This document shows positions 5,006 through 62,073 of a DNA stretch of 64,000 nucleotides, piece by piece. Location of the stretch: the NCBI GenBank assembly GCA_040755395.1, contig JBFMAX010000004.1, forward strand, positions 248,001 to 312,000, in the 5' to 3' direction. This DNA is from Nitrospirota bacterium. Its GTDB lineage: Bacteria > Nitrospirota > Nitrospiria > Nitrospirales > Nitrospiraceae. How positions within the stretch are numbered: position 1 is the stretch's first letter; each line of letters opens with the position of its first letter. The notes beneath the pieces are model-generated. The model did not search any database. It saw only the letters and a program-made list of their open reading frames with translations, and had not been told where the DNA came from. Position numbers and translations under genes: made by a program.

Positions 5006-5213
5006 CTCGCTATACGGTGAAGGGGTCGGCGTAGACGTGGTTCCTGGCCACTCGATCGACCGCCGCCGCCAGCCTGTGCGACTCGATGGGTTTCGTGAGG
5101 TAGTCCGACACCCCGCGCTTGTACAGGTCGGCGGCGCCGCCCGTGTCGGGGTAACCCGTGAGAATCAGGACGGGCACGGAGGGGAACTGCGCGCGGAAGT
5201 ACGAGATGGCTTC
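5006..5213 (-). pseudogene. Truncated duplicate of the response regulator at 6078-6482
   Basis: These 208 bases are nearly identical (only a few mismatches) to 6074-6281, the 3' half of the intact CheY-like gene about 1.07 kb away. The copy keeps the region coding for the C-terminal part of the receiver (SVPVLILTGYP to the PFTV terminus). It lacks the 5' half with the acidic pocket and phospho-acceptor aspartate. Similarity stops abruptly at 5213, after GATGGCTTC. The region just left of 5006 is also weakly similar to that left of 6074. It is a decayed tandem duplication flanking the toxin-antitoxin pair. Confidence 0.85.
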
Positions 5214-6077: not shown

Positions 6078-6482
6078 CTATACGGTGAAGGGGTCGGCGT
6101 AGACATGATTCCTGGCCACTCGATCGACGGCCGCCGCCAGCCTGTGCGACTCGATGGGTTTCGTAAGGTAGTCCGACACCCCGCGCTTGTACAGGTCGGC
6201 GGCGCCGCCCGTGTCGGGGTAACCCGTGAGAATCAGGACGGGCACGGAGGGGAACTGCGCGCGGAAGTACGAGATGGCTTCCTCCCCCCGGACTTTCGGC
6301 ATGTTGAGGTCGCACACGATCGCGTCGATCATGAGCGGATTGTCCCCTGATGTCATCTCCGTGACGGCCTCTTCTCCGTTCGCTGCTTCGACCGTGTCGT
6401 AGCCCGCCTTGTTCAAGCAGAACCGCACCGACTTCCTGACGTCCGCTTCATCATCCACTACGAGAATTCGACCGAGTGCCAT
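6078..6482 (-). CDS. Single-domain response regulator (CheY-like receiver)
   Basis: A 134-residue protein made only of a phosphoacceptor receiver domain, with no output domain. The acidic pocket is D10-D11-E12, the phospho-acceptor is D58 in IVCDLNMPK, the switch threonine is in LILTGYP, and the conserved lysine is in YLTKP. Single-domain receivers relay phosphate between kinases or bind a partner protein. A perfect sigma-54-type promoter lies 110 bases upstream on the same strand. A truncated near-identical copy sits at 5006-5213. The start is supported by AGGAGG eight bases upstream (CCTCCT at 6491-6496 on the plus strand). Confidence 0.92.
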   Translation of the reverse strand: MALGRILVVDDEADVRKSVRFCLNKAGYDTVEAANGEEAVTEMTSGDNPLMIDAIVCDLNMPKVRGEEAISYFRAQFPSVPVLILTGYPDTGGAADLYKRGVSDYLTKPIESHRLAAAVDRVARNHVYADPFTV

Positions 6483-36700: not shown

Positions 36701-38690
36701 CGCGTTCGGCGCCACGACCTGGCCGCACGGCGGGTTCGGGGTGACGATCGTGGAACCCTACGGATCCACCTACCACGATCCGAAGAACGGCAAGCTCGTG
36801 TGGAGCGGGCCGATCGCGGACATCCATAGCACGGAGCCGATCGGCGCCGGCGTGAGCGGGAGCTTCCGGGAACTGATGGTGTCGATCCATGACACCGTCC
36901 CCCATACCGTGAACGTTATCCAAGCGGGCAACCCGCCTGGACAGCCGGTCGAAGTGGCGCTGGAAGCCGGCAAGACCGTGTCCTTCCAGATGCCAGAAAA
37001 GATCCTGATGGCGCCCAACCCCTATATTAACGGGGGTACGCATACGACGGGGAGCGGCCTGAACTTCCGGGCCGAGCCCTTCGCGCAGCGGTTGGCCAAC
37101 AATCCGGATACGTCGAAGCTGTTCAGCAGCGCGATCCACGGGGATCCGGACACGCCGCTGTTGCGTGCATACGTAGGCGATACGATGGTGTTCCGGCTGT
37201 TGCATCAGCTCATGAACGAGTCGCATGTCTGGACGCTCTCCGGGCATACCTTCCTTACGGAACGGTACGCCGCGGATGCCAATCGGAAGTACTCGATTCA
37301 CGTCGGTATCGCCGAGCGGTATGACCTGGTGACGAAAGCAGGCGGCTTCCAAGGTATGCCGGGCGATTACATCCACTTCAACGGCCGGAGTTCGCACTTC
37401 GCCGAAGGCGGATGGGGCATCATCCGCGTTCTGGACAAACAGGTGCCGGATTTGATGCCGTTGCCGACCGGGACGAAACCGTTCGCGATTCCGCCGGTGC
37501 CCAAATCGGTCTGCCCGGCCGACGCCCCGGTGAAGACCTTCAACGTGGTGGCGCTGGATCGCCCGTTGAAACTGAACCCGAAGGCGCCGGACGCGATCGA
37601 AGTGGACTTCGAGCGGAAGATCGAAATGACCGTGCCGGAAGGCAAGATCTTCGCGCTCGAGGAGGAAGTCACCAAGGTGGCGTCGGACGTGATGCCGCAT
37701 CCGCTCACGCTGCGGGTGAACCTGGGCGACTGCATCAAAGTGAATCTGAAGAACAAGATGAAGAGCAGCCGGGCGTCGTTCTTCGCGCCGGGGCTGGCCT
37801 TCGATCCGAAAGACTCGCTCGGCCTGAACGTCGGGAATAACCCCGGCGATCAGACCATCGCGCCGGGCGAGAGCCGGACCTACACCTACTATGCGCATCC
37901 CGCAAACAAGGAGACGACGTCGCTGGTATGGGACGGCGGCAACATCGTGACGAACCCGCGCAACGGCCTGTACGGAGCGATCATCGTCGGGCCCCGCGGA
38001 TCGCAATATCGCGATCCGGTGACCGGGCAGGATATCTCGCTCAAGAATGCTTGGCGCGCGGACGTGATTGTTGACCGGAGCTTGCCGGAGAACGCGGGCA
38101 AGGTGAACTACCGGGATGTGGCCCTTTTCTTCCAGGATGAGGACAACATCATCGGCACTGCGTTCATGCCCTACGTCCAGAACGTCGCGGGGCTGACGGC
38201 GGTGAACTACCGAGCGGAACCGTACAAGTTCCGCGAGGAGCAGGGCTGCTCGCTCGGCCGGATCTTCCAGCCGTGCGTGGTGGACAAGCCCGAGGATCCG
38301 ATCACCCCCTTGATCGAGGCGCATGCCGGAGATCCGGTGCGGATCCATGTGATCGGCGCCAACAGCGAACAGAATGGGATGTTCGGGATCGAAGGCCACG
38401 AATGGCCGATCGAGCCGTACATGCCGGGTGCCGACATGATCAGCGTGGTGGAGTACGCCGGGTCGGAGACTCTGGATGTCTTCGTCCGGGGCGGCGCGGG
38501 CGGTCCGTACCGGTTGCCGGGAGATTACGTCTGGTCCAACGCGCGGCTCCCCTACACGCAGTCCGGGCAGTGGGGCTACTTCCGGGTGCTGCCGGCCGGT
38601 GATCAGCGTATCCTGCCGCTGAACGGCGCCGGTGCCGGGATCAAGCGCACGGAAGCCGAGCCGGCGGCGATCCCGACCGCGATGCGGTAG
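33756..38690 (+). CDS. Giant multi-domain multicopper oxidase (1,644 residues)
   Basis: Secreted oxidase with an N-terminal signal peptide after a very basic stretch (FQRRSRRRRATR, then AAVLASSLVASPWLFA). Repeated cupredoxin domains run through the protein. Copper-ligand motifs can be seen: IHPHMQEGVRQFHSYSHD (~280), FHSHHPHSG (~450), FLFHCHVAHHYVAGM (~524; type 1 Cys with flanking His and Met), NIHPHFFQF (~828), FWHDHAFG (~977), HVWTLSGH (~1154) and GHEWPIEP (~1546). The last domains have partly lost ligands. The size and domain number recall MnxG- and ceruloplasmin-like oxidases. Substrate unknown; metal or small-compound oxidation in the periplasm is possible. GGAGG lies eight bases before the ATG. 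Confidence 0.85.
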   Translation: MKWSYLHFQRRSRRRRATRCLQAAVLASSLVASPWLFAAEPGGMSHQGHASPVAMPGWTQTLKGQTVVEDTIEGRADRSEKIELQHHRLMRRLEEQAQKDAQAQQTSGAFNNMSMMHQYMGQDGSSFLLATDAGKGEPVLTTGGRCPAGVPTKHYDVSMISVEITLNRWLDYYPGYMYVLTENIDKVRAEEARNKAAREKEGFDPGAVSTGLQGDIIQPLVLRANQGDCVKLTLRNQMEDEDGSLFIQASSMVVSATGKPATTTNPDAIIPPSKSREFEWYIHPHMQEGVRQFHSYSHDRELTVLGLFGAFVIEPKGSKYLDPLGTGAAPETKSGWQVMIDNGSGPDFREFVIFYHEVGDEAFRPLNKKGDFLPQRDPLTDAYRPGGRALNYRSEPFGIDEMHLQHEYFGFEDESLAYSAYTFGDVPTTIPRAYLGDPVKWRLVHGGSEVFHSHHPHSGSIRWQRSPVTEPNMLWAAGQDGPVKYPVVRTKSDRVDVEVIGPSEALDLEPECGAGQCQHLAGEFLFHCHVAHHYVAGMWGYGRVYNTLQVGQGHTDTMPDMRELPDRQGRMKLGVTSDKLIGTTVDWFGKRFKIVDRNQKTNWKADPAVVNIKDWVEMFLPAQGKPGHTDDERGQIMAYDATVWDWKWNGNIALGERESTAKNPKYPAAVKWDDSTRPPILFDPTTGKLAWPLFKPHFGKRVPFSANHNGAPWLEPIHQDENGERTSEPAKPGEQGRWSLCPDNANQKFYNLHFIRLPITLAKKQGKEPPIVDKDGLIYVLHEEERLIRANDDLKYPAVIRANVYDCVDLVLTSEWDDDDFTNFQSSKINIHPHFFQFDTGNSDGVISGFEYEMSVRPFTMWGKPTKHGLPAPMVAKLKSAVKAGATSVKIEMAPGATPFHVNTELMVGMDCLEKGNDPTASLPRDRSCSEVARIKEIKGDTITFFKPLKHNHPAKDLVSPEFVRYRWWVDVDMGTVFWHDHAFGATTWPHGGFGVTIVEPYGSTYHDPKNGKLVWSGPIADIHSTEPIGAGVSGSFRELMVSIHDTVPHTVNVIQAGNPPGQPVEVALEAGKTVSFQMPEKILMAPNPYINGGTHTTGSGLNFRAEPFAQRLANNPDTSKLFSSAIHGDPDTPLLRAYVGDTMVFRLLHQLMNESHVWTLSGHTFLTERYAADANRKYSIHVGIAERYDLVTKAGGFQGMPGDYIHFNGRSSHFAEGGWGIIRVLDKQVPDLMPLPTGTKPFAIPPVPKSVCPADAPVKTFNVVALDRPLKLNPKAPDAIEVDFERKIEMTVPEGKIFALEEEVTKVASDVMPHPLTLRVNLGDCIKVNLKNKMKSSRASFFAPGLAFDPKDSLGLNVGNNPGDQTIAPGESRTYTYYAHPANKETTSLVWDGGNIVTNPRNGLYGAIIVGPRGSQYRDPVTGQDISLKNAWRADVIVDRSLPENAGKVNYRDVALFFQDEDNIIGTAFMPYVQNVAGLTAVNYRAEPYKFREEQGCSLGRIFQPCVVDKPEDPITPLIEAHAGDPVRIHVIGANSEQNGMFGIEGHEWPIEPYMPGADMISVVEYAGSETLDVFVRGGAGGPYRLPGDYVWSNARLPYTQSGQWGYFRVLPAGDQRILPLNGAGAGIKRTEAEPAAIPTAMR

Positions 38691-38696
38691 CCAGGA

Positions 38697-38766
38697 CTGA
38701 GGTGCGAGGACTGAGGACTGAGCTAACCGCACACTCGGTCCTCAGCGCTCGGCACTTGAGACGCCG
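38697..38766. repeat. Palindromic word repeat (GAGGACT words)
   Basis: Tandem GAGGACT words (GAGGACTGAGGACTGAG) on the left mirror CTCGGTCCTCAGCGCTCGG on the right around CTAACCGCACA. The word differs from those at other loci. Confidence 0.75.
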
Positions 38767-44261: not shown

Positions 44262-44337
44262 CGGGCGCGAAAGGCGAGACGTGTTCCATCTTCGAGCAGA
44301 AGTCCCGCTCGCGCTTGTCGCGCTTGTCTCGCTCGGT
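44262..44337. repeat. Palindromic word repeat (GCGAAAG/GCGAGAC words)
   Basis: GGGACGGGCGCGAAAGGCGA mirrors CGCTCGCGCTTGTCGCGCTT on the other side of a ~30-base spacer. The right arm runs up to the start codon of the radical SAM gene. Confidence 0.6.
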
Positions 44338-44338
44338 G

Positions 44339-45493
44339 ATGGCCATGCATCCGCCACCTCGTCTCGTCTACTGGGAGCTCACCAAGCGCTGCAATCTGCG
44401 CTGCGCCCACTGCCGGGCCGTGCCGGAGGCGGAGGCCGATCCCTCCGAGTTGACCACGGCGGAGGGCTTCAGGCTGATCGACGAACTCGCGCTGATCGGC
44501 CGGCCGCTGCTGGTGCTGACCGGCGGAGAGCCGCTTCTGCGGGATGATCTCTTAGTCCTCGCCAACTATGCCCGGCGTCGTGGGCTGCCCTCGGCGCTCG
44601 CCACGAACGGGACGCTGGTCACCCGCGCGATCGCCCGGCACATCGTCTCCGCGGGATTCACGCGGGTGTCGATCAGCCTCGACTGCCCCGACGCGGAGAC
44701 GCACGATGCCTTCCGCCGTGTGGCCGGAGCTTTCGATGCGGCTGTGGACGGGTTCATTCACCTCAAGGAACTCGGGATGTCCCTGCAGGTCAACACCACC
44801 GTCACGAACCACAACCGGGACCGGTTGGAAGAGATCTATGAGCTGGTGCGGAAACTGGGCGCCGCAGCCTGGCACCTCTTCCTGCTCGTCCCGGTCGGCT
44901 GCGGGCTGGAGATCGGCCCATCCCTGCAACTGACCGCGCGTGACTATGAAGCGGTCCTGTGGTGGATCGACGAGTTAGCCGAACGGGAGACCATGGAGAT
45001 CCGGACAATCTGTGCGCCGCACATCCAGCGGATTCGGTTGCAGCGGCAAGAGTTGCAACGGGGTAACGGGATAACGGGACAACGGGGTACGGGGGGAAGT
45101 CCCGCTATCCCGCTATCCCACTACCCCGCTACGTACCCCGTTACACCCTTACCTCTCTACCCCTCTACCCCGGCAGTTCGAAGAGGCTGTCTGGCCGGGA
45201 GTGAGATCTGCTTCGTCTCGCATCGTGGCGAGGTGTTCCCGTGCGGCTATTTGCCGTTCAAAGCGGGCGACCTTCGACGGCAATCCTTCGCCGACGTGTG
45301 GGCCGCATCGCCGGTGTTCGCCGACCTCCGCGATCCGGACCGCCTCATGGGCAAGTGCGGGGGGTGCGAATACCGAATCGTCTGCGGCGGCTGCCGCGCC
45401 CGCGCGTTCGGCCAGACCGGCCATTACCTCGGCGAAGAACCGGCCTGTCTCTATCTGCCCCAGCGGATCAGCGCGGCCGGCGCGACACGATGA
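44339..45493 (+). CDS. Radical SAM/SPASM protein with an in-frame palindromic repeat insert
   Basis: A 384-residue iron-sulfur enzyme. The radical SAM cluster is C18-x3-C22-x2-C25 (RCNLRCAHC), followed by the SAM-binding GGEPLL and the strand SISLDCPDAETHDAF. The C-terminal SPASM part has GCLAGSEICF, FPCGY, CGGCEYRIVCGGC and PACLY, able to bind further clusters. NirJ/AhbD- or PqqE-like proteins share this layout; substrate unknown. Between the barrel and SPASM parts (residues ~240-280) lies a proline/tyrosine-rich stretch encoded by a palindromic word repeat, in frame. ATG 44339 is chosen because the earlier TTG lies inside another repeat. Confidence 0.83.
   Translation: MAMHPPPRLVYWELTKRCNLRCAHCRAVPEAEADPSELTTAEGFRLIDELALIGRPLLVLTGGEPLLRDDLLVLANYARRRGLPSALATNGTLVTRAIARHIVSAGFTRVSISLDCPDAETHDAFRRVAGAFDAAVDGFIHLKELGMSLQVNTTVTNHNRDRLEEIYELVRKLGAAAWHLFLLVPVGCGLEIGPSLQLTARDYEAVLWWIDELAERETMEIRTICAPHIQRIRLQRQELQRGNGITGQRGTGGSPAIPLSHYPATYPVTPLPLYPSTPAVRRGCLAGSEICFVSHRGEVFPCGYLPFKAGDLRRQSFADVWAASPVFADLRDPDRLMGKCGGCEYRIVCGGCRARAFGQTGHYLGEEPACLYLPQRISAAGATR
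45055..45172. repeat. Palindromic word repeat (GGGATAAC words) inside a coding sequence
   Basis: GGGTAACGGGATAACGGGAC and ACGGGGTACGGGGG on the left mirror CCCGCTATCCCGCTATCCCA and ACGTACCCCGTTACACCC on the right. The whole ~118-base unit lies within the radical SAM gene and keeps the reading frame. It adds about 40 residues between conserved domains. Confidence 0.85.
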
Positions 45494-45512: not shown

Positions 45513-47163
45513 ATGCAGTCGGCTTCCTATCTCTACGCGCGCCTGTTCGGGCTGGGCGCCGCTCATGCCTTCGGGATCCCCGGGGACCTCATCCTGCCGT
45601 TGTACGCCGAGTTGGAGCGGAGCCCGATCCGGCCGATCCTGACCACCCACGAACCCTCCGCCGGTTTCGCCGCCGATGCCTATGCCCGCCTCAGGGGAAT
45701 AGGCCTGGCCGTCGGCACCTATGGAGCCGGCGCGCTCAATATGGTGAATGCCATCGCCCAGGCCTATGCCGAGAAATCGCCGGTGCTGGTCCTGAGCGGG
45801 GCGCCCGCTCTGGCCGGCCGCTCGCCTGAACTGTTGATCCATCATAAAGTCAAGACCTTCGAGACCCAGCGGCACATCTATGAACACGTCACCGTGGCCG
45901 CCGTGGCGTTGGAAGATCCGACGAGGGCGTCTGCGGACATCGACCGCGTCATCGACGCGGTACGCCGAGAGAAGCGGCCCGGGTACGTGGAGATTCCGTG
46001 CGACATGGTACGGGCGGACATCGGCAAGCGCGGCGCGGCCGCCGTTCCGGTCAGCGAGCGGGATGAGGCGGCGTTGGCCGAAGCGATGCAGGAGATCACG
46101 ACCCGCTTCAACCGGAGCCGTCACCCGGTGATCCTTGGCGGGGGTCGAGATCATGCGGCTGGGGCTCAGGGATCGTCTTATTCAGCTCGCCGAACGGCAC
46201 GGGCTTCCGGTCTCGACGTCCTTTATGGGAAAAGCCGTCTTCCCGGAGCACCATCCAAATTTCATCGGGACATACATGGGCGCGGCCGGCCATCCGTACT
46301 CGCGCCGCATGGTCGAAGAAGCGGATTGTCTCCTCATGTTAGGCGCCTGGCTCACCGATACCGAGACCGGCCTGTTCACGAGCGCGATCAAGCGGGAATC
46401 CATGATTCAGGTCCTGGCCAACGAAATCGTCATCAGCCATCACCGGTATGAGCGCGTGGGCTTGGTCGAGGTCATGACCTCGCTGCTTGCGGAAAGGAAG
46501 ATCACGCCGCGGACGTTCAAGAACGAGTATGTGCCCGAGAGGCCGGACTCGCGCGGAGAGTCGCTGATCGCGGGCGTCTTTGCGGAATTGAGCCGTCTGG
46601 ACGACCAGCTCTACGTGTTCACCACCGATGCCGGCGATTGTCTGTTCGGCTCGGTGGAACTCAACGCGGAGCTGATCCTGAATCCCGGCTACTATGCCAG
46701 CATGGGCTTCGGCGTGCCGGCCGCGCTGGGCGCCGGCTTGGCCCTGCCGGACCGCCGGCCGATCGCTCTCGTGGGCGACGGCGGATTCCAGATGACCGGG
46801 ATGGAGATCGCCACGTTGGTGCGGTACGGGGTGCACGCCGTCGTGATCGTGCTCAACAACCGGGGGTATCGCAGCCTGGAAGCCTTGGGCGCTCCGCCGA
46901 CCATTTGCGACATCCCGGCTTGGGACTATGTGATGATTACTGAAGCGCTGGGTGCGACCGGCGTGCGAGTCGGAACACGGGATGGATTCCGCAGCGCGCT
47001 CCATGCCGCCTGCCACCGGCCGGGTGTGACCGTCATCGAAGTGATGATCGATCCCTCCGATCATTCGCTCGCGCTCGACCGGCTTCGAGCCGCTGTCCTC
47101 TCGCAGCGAGAAACAACCGGACCCGCGGCGGACCCCTCGCGATCAGCCGGGCCGGACCGATAG
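45513..47163 (+). pseudogene. ThDP-dependent decarboxylase/synthase-like enzyme with one frameshift
   Basis: Thiamine-diphosphate enzyme of the pyruvate/indolepyruvate decarboxylase-acetolactate synthase superfamily. The first frame (to ~46140) has FGIPGDLILPLYAEL, THEPSAGFAADAYARL with the catalytic glutamate, and VEIPCDMV. The second frame continues with the central domain (RLIQLAERHGLPVSTSFMGKA) and the C-terminal ThDP site (VGDGGFQMTGMEIATL...NNRGY). A single extra base near 46135-46144 (a G5 run) joins VILGG to VEIMRLGL; removing it gives one 549-residue protein. Length 1,651 is one more than a multiple of three. Either a young pseudogene or a base-calling error. Confidence 0.85.
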
Positions 47164-51836: not shown

Positions 51837-51915
51837 ACAAGTTCGAAGTTCGAGGTTCGAAGTTCGATGTGGACGGAGCTTCGACCTCGAACCTCGACCT
51901 TCGAACCTCGAACGC
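51837..51915. repeat. Palindromic word repeat (GTTCGAA words)
   Basis: AAGTTCGAAGTTCGAGGTTC on the left mirrors GACCTCGAACCTCGACCTTC and GAACCTCGAACG on the right around GATGTGGACGGAGC. It is the clearest example in the window: both arms consist only of 6-7-base variants of one word and its complement. Confidence 0.85.
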
Positions 51916-51941
51916 TGCCTGGTCGAGTGAGGATGCCGAGC

Positions 51942-58569: not shown

Positions 58570-58711
58570 GCACGGATCGCCAACCGTCAAACGTTTCCCG
58601 TTCTCCGTTACTCGTTCCCCGATTGACGGTTGTCGATTGACGAATGACGTTTGACGAATGACGAGTCGCGCCGGGACCCATTGCATCCGGGAGCAATGGG
58701 TGCCCGCCAGT
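58570..58711. repeat. Palindromic word repeat (TTGACGA words) plus a shared hairpin
   Basis: GATTGACGGTTGTCGATTGA and CGAATGACGTTTGACGAATG form a word array with weak complements (CCAACCGTCAAACG) at its left. From 58671 CCGGGACCCATTGC pairs with GCAATGGGT and CCCG. The same stem occurs at 62527-62563, also beside a TGACGAATGACGAG word. It fills the gap before the gene at 58768. Confidence 0.7.
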
Positions 58712-58767: not shown

Positions 58768-60405
58768 ATGAAGGCGTCGGATCTGCTCGTGCGCTGTCTG
58801 GAACATGAAGGGGTGGATTTTGTCTTCGGGGTGCCCGGCGAAGAGAACCTCGACGTCATGGACTCGCTGTTGGGCTCGCCCATCCGCTTCATCGTCACGC
58901 GCCACGAGCAGGGCGCGGCGTTCATGGCCGACGTGCATGGGCGACTGACGGGCCGGGCCGGGGTGTGTCTCTCCACGCTGGGGCCGGGCGCGACCAATCT
59001 CCTGACCGGCGTGGCCGACGCCTATCTGGACGGCGCGCCGCTCGTGGCGATCACGGGGCAGGCGTCGCTGGACCGCATGCACAAAGAATCGCATCAATTC
59101 ATCGATGTCCTGTCCATGTTCAGGCCGGTGACCAAATGGAACGCCGAGCTGTTCACCCCCCAGATCATTCCGGAAACGGTGCGCAAAGCCTTCAAGGTCG
59201 CACAAACCGAAAAGCCGGGGGCCACGCATCTGGAGTTGCCCGAGGACGTCGCCGCTCAACAGGTCGCCGACTTGTCCTATCACAGCCCGTTGCGCGTCCA
59301 ATTCCCGTTCTTGCCGGAGCCGCTGACCGCGCAGGTGAACCGGGCGGCGGAGGTGATCGCCAAAGCCCGCCGGCCGATCATCCTCGCGGGCAACGGGGTG
59401 GTGCGCGGCCGCGCGCATGAGGCGCTGCGCCGGTTGGCCCGCCAGTGCCATATTCCCGTCGCCCACACCTTCATGGGCAAGGGGGTCATGCCGGACAGCG
59501 ATCCGCTGTCCCTGTACACGATCGGCCTGCAAATGCAGGACTATTCGGCGGCGGTCTTCGCCGACAGCGACGTGGTGATCGCGGTCGGCTACGACCTGGT
59601 CGAATACGCCCCCTGCTTCTGGAATCCGAACCGGGACAAGCACATCGTCCATGTGGATGTGACGCCCGCCGAAGTGGATGCGCATTACATCGTCGATGTC
59701 GGCGTGCTGGGCGATCTCTCGCTGTCGCTCGACCAGATCGGGGACCAGCTCACGTCCTTCGAGCCGCAGTGGGCCAAAGCCACGCGGGAACGGATTCAGG
59801 CGGCCTTCGATGCGGAATGGGCGGCTCCGCCCTTGTGGCCCATGCGGCCGCAGCACATCGTGCGCGAACTGCGCGCGGCGCTCGGATCGGACGCCCTGGT
59901 GGTCTGCGATGTCGGCGCCCACAAGCTCTGGATGGCTAGAATGTTCCCCTGCGAGGTGCCGAATACCTGCCTCATCTCCAATGGGTTCGCTTCCATGGGC
60001 ATTGCGTTGCCCGGCGCCATTGCGGCCAAGCTGCTGTTCCCGCAGCGACAGGTAGTGGCCGTCACCGGCGACGCCGGGTTCCTGATGAACTCGCAGGAAA
60101 TGGAGACCGCCGTGCGGCTCCGTCTGCCGCTCGTCGTCCTGATCTGGCGGGACGACGGGTACGGCGTCATCCGCTGGAAGCAGCAACTCAAGTTCGGGCG
60201 GACGTCCGGGGTCGAGTTCGGCAATCCAAACTTCGTCGCCTATGCTGAGAGCTTCGGCGCGGTCGGTTATCGAGTCGAGGGACCGACGGAGTTGGGCGCC
60301 GTCCTCAAGGAAGCCCTCGCCTGCGGCAAACCGGCGGTGATCGATTGTCCGGTGGATTACTCGGAGAACCTCAGGTTGGCGGAGCGGCTCAAACAGGAAT
60401 TCTGA
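58768..60405 (+). CDS. Acetolactate synthase-like ThDP enzyme (catabolic type)
   Basis: A 545-residue ThDP enzyme in the acetolactate synthase large-subunit family, closest in layout to catabolic AlsS (no FAD-linked anabolic partner is nearby). The N-terminal domain has VFGVPGEENLDVMDSL and the catalytic glutamate in TRHEQGAAFMAD; the middle domain has AAEVIAKARRPIILAGNGV; the ThDP site is VTGDAGFLMNSQEMETA with the second motif RDDGYG. It would condense two pyruvates to acetolactate. ATG 58768 starts the domain directly; the open frame extends upstream through a repeat. Confidence 0.88.
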   Translation: MKASDLLVRCLEHEGVDFVFGVPGEENLDVMDSLLGSPIRFIVTRHEQGAAFMADVHGRLTGRAGVCLSTLGPGATNLLTGVADAYLDGAPLVAITGQASLDRMHKESHQFIDVLSMFRPVTKWNAELFTPQIIPETVRKAFKVAQTEKPGATHLELPEDVAAQQVADLSYHSPLRVQFPFLPEPLTAQVNRAAEVIAKARRPIILAGNGVVRGRAHEALRRLARQCHIPVAHTFMGKGVMPDSDPLSLYTIGLQMQDYSAAVFADSDVVIAVGYDLVEYAPCFWNPNRDKHIVHVDVTPAEVDAHYIVDVGVLGDLSLSLDQIGDQLTSFEPQWAKATRERIQAAFDAEWAAPPLWPMRPQHIVRELRAALGSDALVVCDVGAHKLWMARMFPCEVPNTCLISNGFASMGIALPGAIAAKLLFPQRQVVAVTGDAGFLMNSQEMETAVRLRLPLVVLIWRDDGYGVIRWKQQLKFGRTSGVEFGNPNFVAYAESFGAVGYRVEGPTELGAVLKEALACGKPAVIDCPVDYSENLRLAERLKQEF

Positions 60406-60490
60406 GTTCTGAATTCTGAATGATGAGTTGGATGAAGGGCGAGACTCACCATTCATCATTCAGAATTCCTCATTCATCATTTCACCCGGA
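60402..60490. repeat. Palindromic word repeat (GAATTCTGAATGATGAG words)
   Basis: TTCTGAGTTCTGAATTCTGA and ATGATGAG on the left mirror TTCATCATTCAGAATTCCTC and ATTCATCATTTC on the right around a ~25-base centre. The right arm ends ten bases before the OsmC start. Confidence 0.8.
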
Positions 60491-61494: not shown

Positions 61495-62073
61495 AGCGTA
61501 CCTCCTGCGCGGAGAATGTTGGTCTGAGACCGGTCACGGCATCATTGTTCCACGCCTCAGCCTATTCCCTTTCCTTCTCTTGTTCAATGCCCAGAAAAGC
61601 TGCGGCTGTCGGGCTTTTTGTCCGTAAACCGGAAACCGCGACCCGTTGACTGTTAACCGTTGGTCGGAAAACGGGGAACGGAAAACGTATAACGGATAAC
61701 GGATAACGGATAACGGCGGCGCTCGCTTGTCTCGGCCGGTGAAGCCTGCTATTCTCCCGCTGCTTTTTTGTGTTCCGTTCCCAGGGTTTGCTGTAGCCGA
61801 GAACCAGCATGCGGACCCCGCGCACGCTTCACCTGCGCATTCGTGTTGTGCCTCGTGCCGATCTTCGTCCAGATCCTATTCCCGCGACACATCCTCCGCG
61901 CTTAGCGTTCGCCTTCGCTTGCACGAGTTTCTCGCCGCGCAATATCCCCCGCAGGTATCCGTAAATGCCCCCCAGGAGATCCTTCCCTTAAAAAGGGGAA
62001 AGGGAGTGAGGGGTAAAGCTGACAGCTCTTCGCTGCTCGCCGTTGGCTGTTTTGACAGCAGAGGACCCGAGCG
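61495..62073. other. Gene-free stretch with word repeats
   Basis: About 580 bases without a gene I can support. It contains the ATAACGG array (61640-61722) and a second word repeat (61965-62050). Open frames here are short and cross the repeats. The promoter of the minus-strand YbaK gene should lie at the left end. Confidence 0.5.
61640..61722. repeat. Word repeat (ATAACGG tandem array)
   Basis: GTATAACGGATAACGGATAA repeats four times at 61685-61720. AACGGGGAACGG words run before it, and complementary words (CCGTTGACTG, TTAACCGTTG) lie to the left. It is the most regular array in the window. Confidence 0.75.

Follow-up and report, generated by a model that had tools for sequence, protein, structure and literature searches.

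In-frame arrays of short inverted words in the linker of a radical SAM/SPASM gene and in related genomes of a Nitrospiraceae-like family

The DNA analyzed here, a stretch of 64,000 nucleotides that we call the window, carries on the plus strand (44315..45493) a gene for a radical SAM/SPASM protein of the TIGR04053 / AhbD / NirJ2-like type. The frame opens at a TTG codon at 44315, the likely start is the ATG at 44339 or a codon nearby, and the frame continues to 45493 without interruption. On the same strand, a Radical SAM domain (Pfam PF04055) is encoded at 44375..44848, residues 21-178 when numbered from TTG 44315, and a SPASM domain (PF13186) at 45188..45370, residues 292-352; their scores, 84.5 and 39.2 bits, both pass the curated cut-offs of 29.5 and 21.5, respectively. 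The equivalog model TIGR04053 is matched with 346.9 bits, under its curated cut-off of 395, a score that may have been depressed by the linker described below. In a fold search the predicted structure resembles PqqE, SkfB, SuiB and anSME.

Between the two domains there is a word palindrome (45057..45172, plus strand) in which 8-bp words in both orientations are read as part of the gene. An earlier note on this DNA had placed it there, in frame, and the open reading frame, together with the position of the Pfam domains, agrees with that placement. Four words in the plus orientation are followed by approximately nine in the minus orientation (CCCGCTAT ... CCCTCTAC), with a period of 8. The plus arm (45057..45094, plus strand, 4.9 copies at period 8) reads AACGGGGT / AACGGGAT / AACGGGAC / AACGGGGT, and the minus arm (45100..45172, plus strand) consists of TCCCGCTA / CCCGCTAC and variants, an orientation that is free of stop triplets. 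Two pairings of inverted arms can be drawn, 45060-45091 with 45132-45163 (75% complementary) and 45059-45086 with 45101-45128 (82%). The word type that had been proposed, GGGATAAC, is valid as the degenerate word GGG[A/G]TAAC (GGGRTAAC) and not as an exact sequence, because the exact octamer occurs only once in the window. When the codons of the linker were shuffled 10,000 times, the 32 inverted 6-mer pairs of the real sequence compared with a mean of 5.8 (p<=1e-4), and its 39 direct 6-mer pairs with a mean of 4.6 (p<=3e-4). The folding energy of the RNA is only mildly unusual (z -1.9), and a function of the element as an RNA hairpin was rejected for this reason.

The palindrome encodes approximately residues 248-286 (TTG-44315 numbering), GNGITGQRGTGGSPAIPLSHYPATYPVTPLPLYPSTP, which are rich in Gly, Pro, Thr and Tyr, much as had been claimed from the sequence. 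An AlphaFold2 model of the protein, built on a 36-sequence alignment (A1), has a mean pLDDT of 83.6, with most residues outside the segment 246-281 near 90; this segment (numbered from ATG 44339; 45074..45181, plus strand) has a pLDDT below 50 and is predicted to be disordered. According to the model, the repeat-encoded segment is a disordered spacer that joins two rigid parts, and this predicted role would explain why the protein tolerates a word array.

The whole 118-bp element matches only itself within its own genome (designated G000), and a two-word pattern with up to two mismatches finds 9+8 (17) matches in the genome and none for the reversed control. From the in-frame location, the excess over shuffled sequences and these genome matches, we conclude that the element is real, in principle translated, and one of a dispersed kind. 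A stricter repeat detector, adopted after a loose one had performed barely above Markov controls, found 57 clusters in 464 kb of G000 compared with 7-18 per control run; the 57 clusters also include fixed repeats (AAGAAAAGGGGTCGGGAGTC, CCCTCTCCC, GCAACGGGT) and GC-rich coding matches, and are not an exact count of word arrays. Most word arrays are intergenic. The other clear in-frame array of this census, which includes the window, lies in a gene for a HerA-like ATPase (PF01935; G000:C1:502507-502604), and the coding-flank test undercounts coding arrays, given that it missed the radical SAM element, whose right flank fell below the threshold. The window also has further word palindromes or arrays, apparently intergenic, at 38680-38760, 51839-51925, 58582-58665, 60396-60481 and 61620-61716, built on GGACTGA, GTTCGAA, TTGACGA/CCGTTCC, TTCTGAA/AATGATG and AACGGAT. 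As a separate observation, the fixed inverted repeat AAGAAAAGGGGTCGGGAGTC / GACTCCCGACCCC, present at two loci (L140, G000:C4:201394-201523; L141, 204619-204770), flanks a Y1 transposase match at C4:201985-202329, an arrangement similar to a REP/RAYT pair.

The radical SAM linker was measured in relatives between the conserved motifs CAPHxxR and RGCLAG. A search of 175 genomes of the family yielded five orthologues, including that of G000, and a scan of public genomes added 80 loci; the linkers of two of these, L033 and L034, are the same as in the family genomes G012 and G131. The linker is 22-95 amino acids long across 83 homologues, 50 in G000 and 44, 40 and 56 in close Nitrospiraceae orthologues, whose residues are unrelated to those of G000. 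It is built from CGTGAAG words together with their complements in G012 (p<=0.0014) and G131 (p<=0.0002), and from GGTTGAG/CTCAACC words with borderline values in G010 and G007 (p 0.03 and 0.024), the linker of G007 being truncated where its contig stops. In a uniform ranking of 84 protein linkers by self-complementarity, the five Nitrospiraceae loci came out on top, followed by G010; no word structure was seen in Nitrospirota linkers from beyond the family (L150-L154, L035).

These comparisons modify what had been suggested for the origin of the segment. The earlier note held that the palindrome adds about 40 residues at a clear insertion point, and that such elements can enter coding sequences and be tolerated. 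A gap over residues ~240-280 was looked for in orthologues and none was found: all 83 of 83 homologues have a variable linker of 22-95 amino acids, the segment is missing in no orthologue, and a clean insertion point is not supported. A simple insertion that leaves a clean gap was rejected on these grounds; what remains of the proposal is a repeat of a dispersed type that is translated and tolerated. The same residues, whose presence in unrelated lineages had been named as contrary to an insertion, were not seen there. As no gap in a homologue covers the element, it occupies an ordinary variable linker, which it seems to have supplanted, and the site is a pre-existing variable linker whose DNA is made of different words in different genera. 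An insertion may have taken place in the very last step of the G000 lineage; the orthologues compared come from other genera, and among the genomes compared no empty or swapped radical SAM site was found in any genome near G000. The evidence at this locus comes from five family orthologues, two of them borderline, and the dynamics described next are drawn mostly from the HerA-like gene and from intergenic sites.

Orthologues of the HerA-like gene are present in 142 of the 175 family genomes, and its linker was compared in 91 of them between QIKxLM and P[ML]LPPDVPQ. It is 26-53 amino acids long, mostly 32-36, and inverted words are significant (p<=0.01) in 24 of the 91; in three orthologues from a different family of the same order, the linkers have 37 amino acids and no words. 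Left arms use words such as GTGAAAC, GGGGTAA, GTGAGGG and GTCAATC, and right arms TTTCACC, TACCCCG, CTCACC, AATGACG and CTCAGCA. It was also noticed that most left-arm words start with GT (GTGAAAC, GTAAGGG, GTAACGGG, GTCAATC, GTGCTGA). On a tree built without the linker, word classes changed at least 24 times in the left arm and at least 28 times in the right, where shuffled labels gave means of 32.7 and 37.2; the inheritance of words is weak by these counts, on class labels that are crude and a tree in which many branches are weak. The same word class recurs in separate places of the tree. Close relatives also carry different words: in G170 and G176 the flanks are 94.8% identical and the right arms differ (CACGTTTCACCTTTCACC... 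in one, CTCAGCACTCAGCACTCAG... in the other), and in G165 and G126, with 92.2% identical flanks, both arms differ and the 7-bp register is kept. The two arms matched in class in 38 of the 59 classified linkers and mismatched in 21. Two other genera (L169, G094; L172, G169) also have GGGRTAAC words in frame in their HerA-like gene, at the position where G000 has CGTGAAG words.

Words of 7 and 8 bp rotate through the three codon phases, so that one containing TGA or TAA threatens the frame once in every three copies. Within the radical SAM array, the sole arm word in stop phase reads GGGACAAC instead of GGGATAAC, and a CAA codon (45080..45082, plus strand) replaces the in-frame TAA expected from the consensus, whereas out-of-frame TAA triplets are kept at 45064 and 45072; there is none in frame. 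In the left halves of 95 coding linkers, stop triplets number 0 in frame 0, 141 in frame 1 and 130 in frame 2. The absence in frame 0 is expected of an open gene; the information lies in how the other two phases and the non-coding arrays differ from it. Among CGTNN words, those in stop phase have TGA in 0 of 32 and TTA in 18 of 32, and those out of phase have TGA in 67 of 101 and TTA in 1 of 101; in non-coding arrays TTA is found in 1 of 39. The Fisher test of this contrast gives p ~1e-12, an optimistic value given that sequences within clades are related and not independent. The contrast between phases shows an adaptation of the arrays to translation.

The same vocabulary is used between genes. 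In syntenic stretches of G170, G175 and G176, with flanks approximately 81-97% identical, a first intergenic site has GTGAAAGG, AGTAAAAGGTT and AATGAAAAATGAG at the same position. A second has CGTTCGTGAAGCG (decayed in G170) or GAGTGCTGAGTGCTGAG, and a third GTGAAAAG, TCTGGTTCATC or no array. An intergenic GGTTGATCTGGTCTGTC site is common to the three genomes, and an intergenic GTCAATGG array of G175 is absent from G170 and G176. GGGRTAAC arrays were found in 18 of the 175 family genomes, from 7 genera, the control giving 0, and CGTGAAA arrays in 58 of 376 genomes of the phylum, nearly all of them in the Nitrospiraceae-like family.

From these results we favor, with a probability of about 0.7, the view that these are ancestral disordered linkers whose DNA has been repeatedly overwritten in frame from a word pool shared by the family. 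The starting state would be a natural disordered linker, in this case joining the radical SAM barrel to the SPASM cluster domain, whose DNA would be overwritten by a word palindrome of 7-9 bp words whose orientation is reversed between the left and right sides. The words at a given site would then be replaced over time, in one arm or in both at once, and at coding sites the survivors would be those without frame shifts or stops, every third left-arm word losing its TGA or TAA. The comparisons show words replaced block by block at fixed sites, in frame and with a common vocabulary. New words may be copied in from other arrays by ectopic conversion through shared words, the arms may be homogenized by hairpin template switching during replication, and the linker would probably have no function of its own beyond spacing. 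A broader proposal, to which we give tentative weight and which falls short of even odds, is that a process in the Nitrospiraceae actively exchanges word arrays at fixed coding and non-coding sites from the shared vocabulary, rewriting linkers block by block with no change of frame, orientation or length.

It is also possible, though rather unlikely, that each array was born in place, within a linker that evolves fast, from polymerase slippage combined with template switching at hairpins, and with no exchange between loci. In yeast coding genes, quasipalindrome template switching homogenizes the arms of inverted repeats and alters protein-coding sequence (PMC8604942), heptanucleotides are the commonest of the longer simple repeats of bacteria and polymerase slippage has been proposed for them (discussed in PMC4679880), and the word register is kept between related linkers (L216/L204). 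Nonetheless, identical words occur at unrelated loci in many genera and the same HerA-like class appears in separate places of the tree; local birth is disfavored because independent origins would not yield a shared vocabulary.

We consider it unlikely that a mobile word-palindrome element, similar to a MITE or an RPE, was inserted once, in frame, in the G000 lineage and tolerated, the word linkers of relatives being separate insertions at a permissive site. The dispersal of the word family in the genome and the intergenic presence or absence of the GTCAATGG array would fit such an element, and palindromic insertions that keep the frame have a precedent in the RPEs (PMC10969869). However, the orthologues show no length gap, the HerA-like linker keeps a similar length while its words change and is equally long in the wordless sister family (37 amino acids), and the arms change separately, as the 21 mismatched linkers illustrate, unlike what is expected from the insertion of a whole unit. 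Neither a fixed consensus nor a recognizable transposase accompanies the arrays. As regards the terminal inverted repeats and target-site duplications of MITEs, the arrays have inverted arms, and no obvious duplication is seen at the sites of presence or absence, whose flanks have diverged.

The overwriting of linkers from a common word pool is also preferred to selection at the protein level, that is, a Pro/Thr/Tyr-rich linker peptide of which the DNA words are a by-product. Many unrelated homologues do have repetitive linkers, for example with HPGG repeats, but the same words occur between genes, the peptides encoded in relatives are completely different, and the inverted words exceed those of codon shuffles that preserve peptide composition, which makes this explanation very improbable. 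An assembly artefact or chance low-complexity sequence, for which the 74 contigs of the G000 assembly might be invoked, can practically be dismissed in view of the open frame with its sole in-phase TAA changed, the similar constructions at the same site in independent assemblies, and the shuffle controls.

REP/BIME elements are fixed sequences of 20-40 bp tied to a Y1 (RAYT) transposase. The word arrays are likewise dispersed, short, palindromic and intergenic, but they have no fixed consensus, many different words are used per genome, and they are present in G094, where no Y1_Tnp match was found; for this last reason a Y1 transposase is not required for them, and the Y1/RAYT enzyme, considered as a motor, showed no clear correlation. 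The cyanobacterial STRR heptamers are tandem 7-bp words, mostly intergenic and scattered over the genome. The same has been described for the TAACTGA repeats of Beggiatoaceae, a single word that is almost never inverted, carries stops in all three frames and lies at the ends of ORFs (PMC4679880). Our arrays, likewise mostly intergenic and scattered, consist of tandem words of 8 bp at the radical SAM locus and 7-9 bp elsewhere; in contrast, they combine several words, have inverted arms, and show stop-phase variants in their coding copies. RPEs are palindromic repeats that occur in intergenic DNA and also, in frame, within unrelated genes, whose proteins tolerate them; their units, of approximately 150 bp, form named families and encode a conserved peptide (review PMC10969869). 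The word arrays also lie both in frame (radical SAM, HerA-like) and between genes, but there is no fixed alignable unit, only words of 7-9 bp that vary from copy to copy and, at a given site, are replaced from one relative to another; the encoded peptides are not conserved between relatives, and the clean gap of element-free orthologues was not seen for the radical SAM array among 83 homologues. Coding palindromes are also known from the mitochondria of Nematomorpha (PMC6649704), and together with the yeast case (PMC8604942) they share with our arrays inverted repeats within coding sequence and the homogenization of arms; in contrast, those cases alter a few codons or overlay conserved regions, whereas here whole disordered linkers are made of words shared with intergenic arrays. 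The arrays thus behave like a domesticated palindromic repeat outside the definitions of RPE, REP and single-word heptamers, a variant of intragenic palindromic repeats for which our search of the open-access literature returned no earlier account in the Nitrospiraceae-like family.

In bacteria, the palindromic repeats known within genes are for the most part fixed elements, such as the RPEs, that inserted a single time; in contrast, here a single linker position holds unrelated word arrays across genera, even where the flanks are 92-95% identical. The codon-phase rule implies selection on single words of a repeat, and gives direct access to the domestication of selfish or mutational DNA as protein. 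The HerA-like gene, given its presence in 142 of 175 genomes, is a comparative test bed for the birth, spread and homogenization of short inverted repeats, and fast-changing linkers in this family are not to be taken as signs of adaptation at the protein level.

Two other features of the window were noted. The segments 5050-5160 and 6115-6230 are nearly identical and lie approximately 1.07 kb apart, apparently a recent tandem duplication. Downstream of the radical SAM gene, a gene similar to indolepyruvate/phenylpyruvate decarboxylases (TIGR03394, 45507-47163) is split near 46140 into two frames, the first matching profile positions 9-207 and the second 210-531; the break adjoins a run of five G, and the split may reflect a frameshift, a pseudogene or a sequencing error.
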